33,536 nucleotides of DNA from a candidate division Zixibacteria bacterium SM1_73. Lineage in GTDB: Bacteria > Zixibacteria > MSB-5A5 > SM1-73. The DNA lies in NCBI GenBank assembly GCA_001304225.1, contig LJVD01000065.1, positions 1 through 33,536 on the forward strand, read 5' to 3'. The first letter of the stretch is position 1. Each line of letters starts with the position of its first letter. Positions 5,954 through 31,071 of this stretch are shown in pieces. Below the pieces are notes generated by a model. The model had not been told where the DNA came from. It searched no databases and was given only the letters and a program-made list of their open reading frames with translations. The translations under genes and the position numbers were made by a program.

Positions 5954-7171
5954 ATGAAAAAGTCATTTTTGGTTTTATTGTTGGGAATCATGATCCTTTT
6001 GGTTTCGCTTTTCAACTCCACTTTTGCAGACCAGGATCCTAATGATCCCGCCGGACCAGATTCGGTCTTCTTTAGTTCCAGGGGCTTTTTGGTCCCAGAG
6101 CCTCCTGAAGTGGGGAAGGTTGCCATACCGGTATATTTTAGAAACGATGCTTATGTTATTGCATTACAAATTCCCCTGACCTGGACAGGTCCTGCCACCA
6201 TCGATTCCACCAGCTTTTTCGGAAGCAGGATCAGCTATGTGGGGGACAAAAATGTAAGCATAGACAACCCCAACAAAAAGTTCCTGGTTACTGCGGATGT
6301 GGGACTACAGCCGCCTATACCTGAGGGTAGAGGAATGTTGGTAAAATTATATTTTTCCACCACCGATATCGGCACCCTGATCATTGATACTACTGCCAAT
6401 TCCCCTCTTCCAGAAGAACATCTATTGTTTAGCACAGAAGATTCGGTAACCTATGTGCCACGGTTCCGTAGAGGAGAGTTCCCCTTGGTAAGCGAGGAAG
6501 ATCCCAATGATCCTGGAGGCCCAGATTCGGTTTCATTCTACCCCGACCGCGCCTATTATCCTTTGCCCAGTGGTCCGGGAATATTCTACGCTCATATTCA
6601 GGTTGTAAACGATGATGAGGTGGGGGCCATGATCCTACCTTTTCACTGGTCCGGACCAGTATCATTTGATTCCGTTACTTTTAGGGAAAGCGTATTTGAG
6701 GAGCTTGAATACAGAATAGTCAACCCAGACACTGCGTCAAACAAAGTGATGATCGGAGGGATTCCAGTATCAGAACCTCCAATTCCTCCTGCTCGAGGTC
6801 TTTTTACCACCTTGTGTTTTACCGTGTACGGTAAGACTGATTTGGTGACAGTGGACACTAGTTTCTTTCCCCCTGTAAATCACTATACATTTGTCAGCAA
6901 TGAGCCGTTAGGCTATGCTCCTCAGTTCGTCTTAGGGGATTTTCCTGTGATTGAGTATTGGCCTGGAGATGTAACCTTTGATGGCATACGCAACAGCGCA
7001 GACGTGGTTTTCCTTTTCGATTACCTGTTTAAAGGCGGTTTACCTCCCCCACACCCCATATCGGCTGATATGAACGGACCAGATAGGATAATTGACATTG
7101 AGGACATTGTGTACTTAATAGATTATCTCTATAAGGCTGGTCCCGATCCTTTGCCAGGGGATCCCTGGTAA
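5954..7171 (+). CDS. Secreted protein with two tandem cohesin-like beta domains and a C-terminal type I dockerin-like domain
   Basis: Signal peptide MKKSFLVLLLGIMILLVSLFNSTFA; two ~150-aa units starting DPNDPAGPDSV / DPNDPGGPDSV and ending YVPRFRRGEFPLV / YAPQFVLGDFPVI; C-terminal GDVTFDGIRNSADVVFLFDYLF + ADMNGPDRIIDIEDIVYLIDYLY duplicated dockerin motif. Confidence 0.85.
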   Translation: MKKSFLVLLLGIMILLVSLFNSTFADQDPNDPAGPDSVFFSSRGFLVPEPPEVGKVAIPVYFRNDAYVIALQIPLTWTGPATIDSTSFFGSRISYVGDKNVSIDNPNKKFLVTADVGLQPPIPEGRGMLVKLYFSTTDIGTLIIDTTANSPLPEEHLLFSTEDSVTYVPRFRRGEFPLVSEEDPNDPGGPDSVSFYPDRAYYPLPSGPGIFYAHIQVVNDDEVGAMILPFHWSGPVSFDSVTFRESVFEELEYRIVNPDTASNKVMIGGIPVSEPPIPPARGLFTTLCFTVYGKTDLVTVDTSFFPPVNHYTFVSNEPLGYAPQFVLGDFPVIEYWPGDVTFDGIRNSADVVFLFDYLFKGGLPPPHPISADMNGPDRIIDIEDIVYLIDYLYKAGPDPLPGDPW

Positions 7172-7725: not shown

Positions 7726-8289
7726 ATGTATAGATACGTCGGAATATCAAAATTCATGAGCTTCGTGTTAAGACATAAGCCTGAAAATTTTGGACTGCAA
7801 CTCGATCCTTTCGGTTTTGTGAATACAAAGGATCTACTTGTCGTGCTCCAAAATCGGTATGGGGACGTTCAATTGTCTGATGTAGAAAAAGTAGTGAAAA
7901 ACTGCCCCAAAGGAAGATTTGAGATAAAGGGAGATAAAATCAGAGCAAGATATGGTCATTCCATCCAAGTCCAGCTTGACGTTGAACCCTCGGAACCTCT
8001 GGAATATCTATACCATGGGACAAGTCCGGCCATGAAAAAGACAATTTTAGCTGAAGGCTTAAAACCGATGAAAAGAAGATACGTTCATTTGAGCAAAAGC
8101 AAAGAAGAGGCATTTCAAGTGGGGAGAAGAAGATCCAGAAACCCAATAGTTTTCATCATAAAGGCAAAAGAAGCTTTTCAAAACGGAACAAAATTCTATG
8201 ATATGGGAGTCGTGGTTTTGGGTGAATTTGTGCCCAGCGAATTCATAGAACTAGCTGACGAACCTGACAAAAAAAATCCGCTGCTTTAA
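7726..8289 (+). CDS. kptA: RNA 2'-phosphotransferase, Tpt1/KptA family
   Basis: KFMSFVLRHKPENFGLQLDPFGFV N-domain; RARYGHSIQV; LYHGTSPAMKKTILAEGLKPMKRRYVHLS ADP-ribosyl-transferase-like core. Confidence 0.93.
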   Translation: MYRYVGISKFMSFVLRHKPENFGLQLDPFGFVNTKDLLVVLQNRYGDVQLSDVEKVVKNCPKGRFEIKGDKIRARYGHSIQVQLDVEPSEPLEYLYHGTSPAMKKTILAEGLKPMKRRYVHLSKSKEEAFQVGRRRSRNPIVFIIKAKEAFQNGTKFYDMGVVVLGEFVPSEFIELADEPDKKNPLL

Positions 8290-8338
8290 TTTACCATTTT
8301 TGCAGCGGTCGGCAGGCATCGGGCTGCGGACAATTTAT

Positions 8339-9364
8339 ATGAAAGAGAAGATAAATCTGAAAGGGCTCTGGATAGACGACTTGGAAAAACTGCTTGAGGA
8401 ATTGGGAGAAAGAACTTATAAAGCCAATCAGCTGGCTTCGTGGATTTATGATAAAGGAAGCACTAATTTCAGCCAGATGACTGATCTCTCCAAGAGCCTC
8501 CGGGAAAAGCTAAGCTCCATCGCATGTATAGATACCATAAGACTAATCAAGGCGCAAACTTCCGAGCTTGACTTTTCGAAGAAATTTCTCTTTGAACTAA
8601 GGGACGGCGAGAGAATTGAAGCGGTCTTAATGTGGGAAGATGACCGAACTACCATCTGTGTGTCCACCCAAGTGGGATGTCCTCTGGGGTGCGCCTTTTG
8701 TGCTACTGGGAAGATGGGCTTTAAAAGAAACTTAACCCCTGGCGAGATTGTGGATCAAATCTTAGCACTGAAGGATCACAGACCCACTCATGTGGTGCTC
8801 ATGGGCATGGGGGAGCCCCTTTTGAACTATGAGAATACCATCAAGGCTTTGAAAATCGTCAACTCCGAGCTGGGTCTCTCTTTCGCTGGCAAAAGAATTA
8901 CCCTATCCACTGTGGGCATACCCAACATGATAAAGAAGTTGGCGGACTTAACCTGGAGAATAAGATTGGCTATTTCACTCAACGCCCCCAACGACCAAAA
9001 AAGAAGCCAACTGATGCCCATAAACAAAAAATACCCCTTGAACACCCTGTTAGAAGCCGTCAAATATTATGCCAAAAAGAAGAAATTGAGGCTTACCTTT
9101 GAATACGTTTTGATAAAAGACTTTAACGATTCCGAAGAAGATGCTTTGGAACTGTCAAAGCTGGTGAGAGGGATTCCCTGCAAGATCAATCTAATACCCT
9201 ATAATTCCGTCCCCGATTTGCCCTTCGAAAAACCTTCTGAGGAAAAGATTACTGCCTTTAGGGATTATCTTTATCCCCGTTGTCCCACAGTCACCTTGCG
9301 AAAAAGCAAAGGCGAAGACATCCAGGCCGCCTGCGGACAGCTGTGTACTTCTATCAAATCCTGA
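8339..9364 (+). CDS. rlmN: 23S rRNA (adenine-C2)-methyltransferase RlmN, radical SAM
   Basis: CVSTQVGCPLGCAFCATGKMGFKRNL (CxxxCxxC), HVVLMGMGEPLLNYEN, C-terminal IQAACGQLC. Start set at the ATG at 8339; the track's 8300 TTG start lies in repeat-like intergenic sequence. Confidence 0.95.
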   Translation: MKEKINLKGLWIDDLEKLLEELGERTYKANQLASWIYDKGSTNFSQMTDLSKSLREKLSSIACIDTIRLIKAQTSELDFSKKFLFELRDGERIEAVLMWEDDRTTICVSTQVGCPLGCAFCATGKMGFKRNLTPGEIVDQILALKDHRPTHVVLMGMGEPLLNYENTIKALKIVNSELGLSFAGKRITLSTVGIPNMIKKLADLTWRIRLAISLNAPNDQKRSQLMPINKKYPLNTLLEAVKYYAKKKKLRLTFEYVLIKDFNDSEEDALELSKLVRGIPCKINLIPYNSVPDLPFEKPSEEKITAFRDYLYPRCPTVTLRKSKGEDIQAACGQLCTSIKS

Positions 9365-29089: not shown

Positions 29090-30925
29090 CTAAATTGCGC
29101 TGTCAAGGAACAATTGATTCCAGAGTTCAAAAATCAAAAGCGATCCCAGCTTAAAGGTATTGTTTTGTCTTGCCGAAAGATGTTCATTTATGATTTCTTT
29201 GACAAATTCGGGATTAAAATATCCCCTTTCTGTAGCTTTTTTGCTTAACAGAGTGGAAATTACAAAATCCTTTAATTCGTTTCTCATCCAATTCTCATCA
29301 TCAACATGTCCCCGTTTGTCTCTTTTCGGAGGAAAAAGCTTCTTTTGGCACATATCTTGAGCCTTCTTAAACAGGACAACCATCAAATTGGAGTTCACAG
29401 GAAGTCCGGTTCGCTGATATGGAATTGTAGCTAATTCCGGAAACTTCCTGACAATGAGCTTGCGATAGAAGGTGGCCAGCACCCTTTGTCTGGGCGGAAT
29501 GGTCAAAAGGAAATCGACTAAATCATAGTCGCAGAAGGGGATTCTATATTCGATGAGATGGCTATCGGATATAGGGCCATAAAGATGTGTCTTTCTTGCC
29601 TTCTCTGTGATGTAAAAATGGTAAACCTTATTAAAGGGGGATTTCTCAGGAAAGTTAGCCATTGTATCAGCAAAAGATTGAAAAACCCTTCCCCTAATCT
29701 GGGAATAATATTGACGGACAAAAAGTTTGGACAACAGGTCTTCGGAGAATGGTTCGTTAATCTTGCGAAAAAATCCTCTCACCCAATTCATTGATTTTTT
29801 TGTAAAGACAAATCTAAGCAAACCAAACGATAGAACTCCCATAAACTCATTCCCGCAGAAGCCATTAAAAAGTATGAACACATTTTTTCTTATCTCCGGA
29901 AGGAATTCAAAGCTATGGAAAGAGGCACGGGTCATTCCATCGGTTACCCAAACTCCGGTTCCTGCCCAGTGCTTTAGATAATCCGGAGAGACCTGAAAAA
30001 AATAATTTTTCATTCCCAGGGTTCTGGAGATAAGCTCCGCACCCTTTTGATCGTCACAGCCAGCCCTTCCAAAGGTAAAAGTGGGAAGTTCATAACCCAA
30101 TCGGCTAAGCGCCCCCAGAATGGTTCTCGAATCCAATCCCCCACTCAAATAGCAACCCTTTGGCTTTTGGTCATCCATCTGCCTTTTCACCGCTTGTAGA
30201 AGAAGAGAATGCGCTTTTTCGATCGCCTCCTTTTGATTGAAACCGGGATGGTCATCTTTGAGCATAAGTTCCCAATATCTTTTGGTATTCAAAGATCCAG
30301 CTTGAAAGGTTAAAATCGAAGCAGGATTCAAGACTTTGATATCTTTAAAAAGCGTCCTTTCTCCCAGGATACAGTTCAGACCGAAAAATTCGGCTAAAGC
30401 CTGCTTGTCTATTTCTTTTCTCACCTGCGAAAAGGCGAGGATGGATTTCATTTCAGAGGCAAAGAGGAAAAGATCATTTTGCCAAGAATAATACAGGGGC
30501 CTCAGTCCATATCTGTCATTGGCGATGAGGAGAAGATTTTTATTAAAATCCCATAAAGCTAAGACAAAAGAGCCATTCAACTTTTTTATGATTTGGGTCC
30601 CTTTCTTTTCTAATAAGTATAGAATGAGTTGAGGGTGATTGTCATATTCGAGGCTATGGTCTTTTACTATGGTCTTGACAAAATCATCCCGATAATGGTA
30701 AATCTCTCCGTACATGACAAGGCATAAAGATCGATCTTGGTTGAAGACCGGCTGAGGATAAGGGTCGATTACCCCTAAAGAGGCTCTTCCCAAAGCTGCC
30801 GGCCTTCGGTGGTAATGATCCACTTTATACCAAGGCTCGTGCCGCATCAGGTCTAACATCTTAGTGATTTTCTGTTCTAAGTCGTATTTTCCTTCCAGAT
30901 CGATTATTCCTGCAATGCCAGACAA
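29090..30925 (-). CDS. Asparagine-synthetase-like protein (degenerate class II glutaminase domain + ATP-pyrophosphatase domain)
   Basis: TTG start with SD AAGGAG 5 nt upstream; SGIAGIIDLEG... (Ser in place of the catalytic Cys); LVMYGEIYHYRDDF; PP-loop LSGGLDSRTILGALS. Confidence 0.88.
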   Translation of the reverse strand: MSGIAGIIDLEGKYDLEQKITKMLDLMRHEPWYKVDHYHRRPAALGRASLGVIDPYPQPVFNQDRSLCLVMYGEIYHYRDDFVKTIVKDHSLEYDNHPQLILYLLEKKGTQIIKKLNGSFVLALWDFNKNLLLIANDRYGLRPLYYSWQNDLFLFASEMKSILAFSQVRKEIDKQALAEFFGLNCILGERTLFKDIKVLNPASILTFQAGSLNTKRYWELMLKDDHPGFNQKEAIEKAHSLLLQAVKRQMDDQKPKGCYLSGGLDSRTILGALSRLGYELPTFTFGRAGCDDQKGAELISRTLGMKNYFFQVSPDYLKHWAGTGVWVTDGMTRASFHSFEFLPEIRKNVFILFNGFCGNEFMGVLSFGLLRFVFTKKSMNWVRGFFRKINEPFSEDLLSKLFVRQYYSQIRGRVFQSFADTMANFPEKSPFNKVYHFYITEKARKTHLYGPISDSHLIEYRIPFCDYDLVDFLLTIPPRQRVLATFYRKLIVRKFPELATIPYQRTGLPVNSNLMVVLFKKAQDMCQKKLFPPKRDKRGHVDDENWMRNELKDFVISTLLSKKATERGYFNPEFVKEIINEHLSARQNNTFKLGSLLIFELWNQLFLDSAI

Positions 30926-31071
30926 GCTCTCTCCTTACAGTTTTGGATTCAAAGTCACCTTTTGCGAAATAATTCTTAAAGTGTGTCCTTTAACAGTTAT
31001 CCTAATGGTGGGATAGGATAGATTTGAGGATCTTCTCCAAAAGAGTTGCTGATGCATAAGTCAGACCGAAA

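Follow-up and report, generated by a model that had tools for sequence, protein, structure and literature searches.

Asparagine-synthetase-like (AS-like) ligases, with or without a glutaminase, form a chemistry class that is already known. Beta-lactam synthetase (BLS) and carbapenam synthetase (CarA) share the AS fold, carry a glutaminase domain that does not function and use a Tyr-Glu dyad and a catalytic Lys, and the XrtA/PEP-CTERM amidotransferase family keeps its N-terminal Cys. AS homologs serve many carboxylates, as in FzmA and in TsnB9, which acts on a non-aspartate carboxylate (PMC6133997), and one homolog, PesC, makes nitriles (PMC13060819). We analysed a stretch of 33,536 nucleotides from the candidate division Zixibacteria bacterium SM1_73 (the window), which carries an AS-like gene whose product, here called W, has Ser in place of the catalytic Cys. 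The features of the gene are as follows.

29090-30925, minus strand: gene for the Cys-less AS-like protein of 611 aa, starting with TTG (PF13537, 1.6e-23; PF00733, 1.7e-34)
30931-30936, minus strand: AAGGAG resembling a Shine-Dalgarno sequence, 5 nt upstream of the start codon, read from the sequence
30920-30922, minus strand: codon 2, TCT, encoding Ser where AsnB has its catalytic Cys1 (sequence and alignment)
30236-30925, minus strand: residues 1-230, comprising what was a glutaminase (GATase) domain plus the linker; the C1, R49, N74 and D98 positions all replaced, fold and conservation kept
30827-30841, minus strand: HEPWY, residues 29-33, where AsnB has HRGPD; Trp32 does not vary within the core Cys-less group
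30695-30712, minus strand: YGEIYH, residues 72-77, in place of NGEIYN; AsnB Asn74 lost
29093-30235, minus strand: synthetase (ATP pyrophosphatase) domain, residues 231-611 (Pfam, model and fold search)
30125-30145, minus strand: PP-loop SGGLDSR, residues 261-267; Arg267 diagnostic of the Cys-less clade
29846-29863, minus strand: GFCGNE, residues 355-360, counterpart of GEGSDE; Glu348 replaced by Phe356 and Asp351 by Asn359
29405-29416, minus strand: QRTG, residues 504-507, counterpart of the AsnB Lys449 region; Lys449 not kept

The reading frame runs from 30925 to 29090 on the minus strand, and the plus strand there contains many stops. As the initial annotation had stated, W starts with TTG behind a well-placed Shine-Dalgarno sequence and its second codon, TCT, encodes Ser and not Cys; the motifs quoted there (MRHEPWYK, YGEIYH, DNHPQ, SGGLDSR and NGFCGNEFMG(V)) were also correct. 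We found no alternative start upstream, and because only three codons separate the TTG from an in-frame stop, an upstream start cannot supply a Cys. W is a member of the AS-like superfamily with both domains, GATase_7 (PF13537) and Asn_synthase (PF00733), scoring above their cutoffs, and with the AS fold. An AlphaFold2 model with 13 homologs (pLDDT 87.9, pTM 0.90) gave a confident AS-type fold, for which Foldseek ranked TsnB9 first (TM 0.76/0.80), followed by AsnB, human ASNS, and then BLS and CarA; profile scores of W were 182 bits for TsnB9, 166 for AsnB, 125 for human ASNS, 70 for BLS and 63 for CarA. The gene is present in a single copy in the source genome (2.22 Mb assembly, 147 contigs, 77% complete), which also encodes an ordinary AsnB with the N-terminus MCGICGIYY on contig C85. 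A role of W in anti-phage defence was considered and rejected, as PADLOC gave no match.

A tree of 32 Cys-less and 25 Cys-containing homologs, with BLS, CarA and lasso cyclases left out, was split between the two groups by one branch with support of 100/100, and a smaller tree (21 and 21 sequences) likewise placed one branch between them. W, with no Cys at residue 2 and with GGxDSR in its PP-loop, lay on the Cys-less side of this branch, and every member of the clade around it lacks the Cys, so that its closest homologs were not ordinary AsnB. In the Cys-less tree, W and an ortholog from Zixibacteria SM23_73_3 (genome G002; support 100/99) joined Zixibacteria of two other families (93/79), and haloarchaeal "asparagine synthase-related" proteins formed the sister group (99/96); the deeper order was weakly resolved and some branches were long. 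Other Cys-less members came from Methanoperedens, other Methanosarcinia, Planctomycetota (including Scalindua and its class) and Dehalococcoidia. Judged from these trees, W belongs to an old, unnamed Cys-less family of bacteria and archaea and is not a stray mutant AsnB, and it scored below every cutoff of the curated NCBIfam models. A scan of the genome contigs with a single protein gave no matches, and an alignment used as query recovered the relatives. A Cys-less member was present in at least 11 of the 133 genomes of the window's class (E ≤ 1e-60, N-termini inspected), and its presence is thus patchy.

A second Zixibacteria subgroup was also seen (L032:9369-11228, L033:11565-13424 and L078:1501-3360), with the motifs MPG.FGLIRK, SGGLDSRF and YQ.TGVDLY. 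GGPTNFG replaces GEGxDE in two of these three proteins, in which the Mg site looks even more altered, and the genes lie in or near polysaccharide clusters where the context could be seen.

The G002 ortholog (L037), from another genus, is full-length and 56% identical to W, and it starts with TTG-CCT, which places Pro at residue 2. This independent ortholog with its Pro, together with the Cys-less clade around W, rules out an assembly error or chance at codon 2. Comparison of the two genes indicated purifying selection (pN 0.27, pS saturated at 0.79), and decay of W into a pseudogene was ruled out by its full length, this selection and its confident fold. A decayed copy was found in G003, of the ortholog's genus, at the same place where G002 carries the intact gene, and no copy was found in G001, of the same genus as the window genome, indicating that the gene is dispensable. 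The G003 remnant (C1:1526200-1526418; L027:9204-9425) comprises 74 C-terminal residues and lies upstream of rplM.

We aligned 25 Cys-less proteins and the Cys-containing set to E. coli AsnB, numbering from Cys1. In W, C1 is replaced by Ser, R49 by Ser49, N74 by Tyr72 and D98 by His97. The first three were replaced in all 25 Cys-less proteins, whereas D98, although lost in W, is retained across much of the core Cys-less group. At the Cys position the relatives of W have Pro in most cases and Val in one, and HRGPD of AsnB has become HExWY/H across the group. By the known mechanism, glutamine cannot serve W as a nitrogen source. Domain matches and residue alignment thus agreed with the initial reading that W is AS-like, that its glutaminase site does not function and that the PP-loop, its ATP motif, is intact.

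The disabled glutaminase domain is nevertheless the better-conserved half of W and is not drifting. Identity between W and the G002 ortholog was 62% over residues 1-230 and 53% over residues 231-611, and mean identity in the core Cys-less group was 0.50 for the N domain and 0.375 for the C domain. The ratio of N to C identity, about 1.4 in the 30-40% identity bin, was the same in the core Cys-less group as in the Cys-containing family. Since conservation of the N domain is undiminished, the domain has been kept for another reason, whether structure, docking or a new ligand.

In the synthetase domain, the PP-loop of W satisfies the AsnB consensus SGGxDS, and GGxDSR was found in 25 of 25 aligned Cys-less proteins, with S, G or T at the Arg position in the Cys-containing members. 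This loop had been described as retained, which holds for the motif but not for its last residue: canonical AsnB reads SGGLDSS/G/T, and the Arg is itself a change. Glu348 of AsnB was replaced in all 25 Cys-less proteins, chiefly by hydrophobic or aromatic residues (Phe in W, Tyr in two Zixibacteria members), and the Mg ligand Asp351 is Asn in W, Gly in its nearest ortholog, and Asp, Gly or another residue elsewhere. Lys449 was replaced in 24 of the 25, the exception being the divergent L126 (Lys). Its counterpart in W is Gln504, or Arg505 under a one-residue shift of the alignment, a position that is mixed among the Cys-less proteins (R, K, A, L, V). Arg267 may take over from Lys449. With Glu348 and Lys449 replaced and Asp351 altered, amide-forming chemistry is not assured.

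The neighbours of the gene in the window are an HtpX-like protease and an antiporter-like gene (named by eye), with no polysaccharide or fumarase gene beside it. The initial annotation had noted no biosynthetic cluster nearby, which is true within the window; in many relatives from this clade, by contrast, the gene is part of a polysaccharide cluster. By eye and without a background test, we counted Cys-less genes that start 1-9 bp after a flippase-like gene in Methanoperedens (L038, L039, L041), a planctomycete (L044) and Methanosarcinia (L123, L124), and Pfam confirmed Polysacc_synt_3 in all three flippase-like neighbours tested. Copies in Scalindua, Dehalococcoidales and some members of the anammox class lie near capsule, glycosyltransferase, chain-length or exosortase-like genes. 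In Zixibacteria of two families, fumarase alpha and beta genes stand directly upstream of the Cys-less gene (L028:12328-15616, L031:11138-14125 and L034:7379-10666), with Pfam confirming the fumarase in L028 and L034. W, L154 and L148 have neither glycan nor fumarase context.

Several further observations were made at these loci. An rpmA-like (L27) gene lies further upstream of the fumarase and Cys-less genes in L028 and L034. In the Methanosarcinia genome G189 (L125:9155-11435), the AS-like gene is cut to 310 aa and the adjoining flippase is broken into two ORFs; both genes are probably decaying. In each of two Dehalococcoidales loci (L127:7756-19008 and L128:7124-16633), a single glycosyltransferase cluster contains both a Cys-less AS-like gene and, roughly 6-8 kb away from it, an ordinary MCGIVGF AsnB. 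Elsewhere in the window, on the plus strand, 7726-8289 encodes an RNA 2'-phosphotransferase-like protein (Tpt1/KptA) and is followed immediately by an RlmN-like gene at 8300-9364 (by eye), and 5954-7171 encodes a protein that looks secreted, contains two similar repeats and has a C terminus resembling a dockerin (GDVTFDG...ADMNGPDR).

Because its clade has lost the glutaminase residues, W probably couples a carboxylate to another nitrogen source. We tentatively favour, at a probability of roughly 0.45, that W is a glutamine-independent, ATP-dependent AS-like carboxylate-amine ligase, probably acting on a surface-glycan precursor. Its C-terminal domain would bind ATP/Mg through the GGxDSR loop and activate a carboxylate as acyl-AMP, the intact PP-loop suggesting ATP use and the AS fold carboxyl adenylation. 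The acyl-AMP would then react with an amine from a source other than glutamine hydrolysis, such as free ammonia, an amino acid or an amino sugar. The former glutaminase domain may serve as a structural and probably substrate-docking unit, its pocket rebuilt by ExWY/H and the changed R49 and N74 positions. The substrate would most likely be a surface-glycan precursor carboxylate, e.g. a uronic acid, to which the neighbours of the relatives point, or, in the Zixibacteria branch, some other acid produced next to fumarase, whose presence there suggests small acids. Direct support comes from the loss of glutaminase residues, the ancient Cys-less clade, the PP-loop with the predicted AS fold, selection, and the glycan and fumarase neighbourhoods of the relatives; confidence is limited by the loss of Lys449 and Glu348, which leaves room for other nucleophile chemistry or a pseudoenzyme. 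A bolder and rather doubtful proposal is that this ancient archaeal-bacterial family converted its glutaminase into an ExWY/H pocket for another ligand, replaced Lys449 by the PP-loop Arg, and decorates glycans with amides or esters before flipping.

Among the alternatives, W could be an intramolecular or non-amine ligase in which, as in BLS or lasso cyclases, the activated carboxylate is attacked within the substrate to give a lactam, lactone or ester without ammonia. The shared architecture with a dead glutaminase domain as scaffold, the presence of BLS and CarA among the fold matches, and the mostly hydrophobic or aromatic residues at Glu348, including the two Tyr, are consistent with this. 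However, W has Phe at what we take to be the Tyr position of beta-lactam and carbapenam synthetases, and BLS and CarA gave the weakest profile scores of the AS family. No clavam or carbapenam genes were recognised by eye among the window ORFs or the neighbours of inspected relatives, and no lasso genes around the copies inspected. We consider this alternative unlikely, and the profile scores do not support the kinship with beta-lactam/carbapenam synthetases and lasso cyclases that had been suggested at first.

We give a similarly low standing to a pseudoenzyme or regulatory protein that may bind ATP with neither half catalytic and act as a scaffold, e.g. of a glycan assembly complex. Such a role would fit the dead glutaminase, the loss of Lys449, Glu348 and in places Asp351, the patchy presence and the decayed G003 copy, whereas the invariance of GGxDSR across bacteria and archaea and the purifying selection on the gene argue against it. 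Less probable still is an ammonia-dependent asparagine synthetase, simply AsnB without its glutaminase: the AsnB fold, the PP-loop and a TIGR01536 match of about 212 bits agree with it, but that match lies under the cutoff of 267, the acceptor-side Glu348 and Lys449 are replaced, the genome already has a canonical AsnB, and relatives lie in glycan clusters. A W that still depends on glutamine with Ser2 as nucleophile is chemically conceivable but strongly disfavoured, as Arg49 and Asn74, and Asp98 in W, are gone as well and most relatives have Pro, and one Val, at that place.

The clade of W offers a compact target in the search for a new carboxylate-modifying reaction, one whose connection with surface glycans can be tested in methane-oxidising archaea, methanogens and anammox-type bacteria. 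It also shows a catalytic domain that has stayed under selection although its chemistry is gone. The database label "asparagine synthase (glutamine-hydrolyzing)" would be wrong for this clade, whose proteins are unable to split glutamine by the known mechanism; AS-like proteins also carry the label "asparagine synthase-related". Searching for AS-like enzymes in polysaccharide, uronamide and archaeal glycan pathways, with subscription journals mostly outside the search, we found no published description of the Cys-less clade, of GGxDSR and ExWY/H as its signatures, of its occurrence in both bacteria and archaea or of the flippase link.

Compared with known systems, W shares with E. coli AsnB (PDB 1CT9) the two-domain architecture, the fold and the SGGxDS PP-loop, but it lacks Cys1, R49 and N74, has E348 and K449 replaced, and ends its PP-loop in Arg; against the glutamine-hydrolysing asparagine synthase model TIGR01536 it scored 211.6 bits. 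The lasso peptide isopeptide cyclase (NF033535) is AS-like too, but W reached 156 bits against a cutoff of 525, and beta-lactam and carbapenam synthetases are weak sequence matches (70 and 63 bits); at the position of their catalytic Lys, the Cys-less alignment is not conserved. The XrtA/PEP-CTERM amidotransferase (TIGR03108) is AS-like and occurs in exopolysaccharide clusters, a setting similar to that of many W relatives, and W scored 199 bits against its cutoff of 817. The haloarchaeal "asparagine synthase-related" proteins WP_227356960 and WP_253520477, for which we found no characterisation, are Cys-less like W and carry DE(P/E)WY and SGGLDSR, at 24-26% identity. The best structural and profile match for W is the hydroxyamidotransferase TsnB9 (PDB 7YLZ), which in the alignment keeps the N-terminal Cys that W does not have and is merely 17-18% identical to it.
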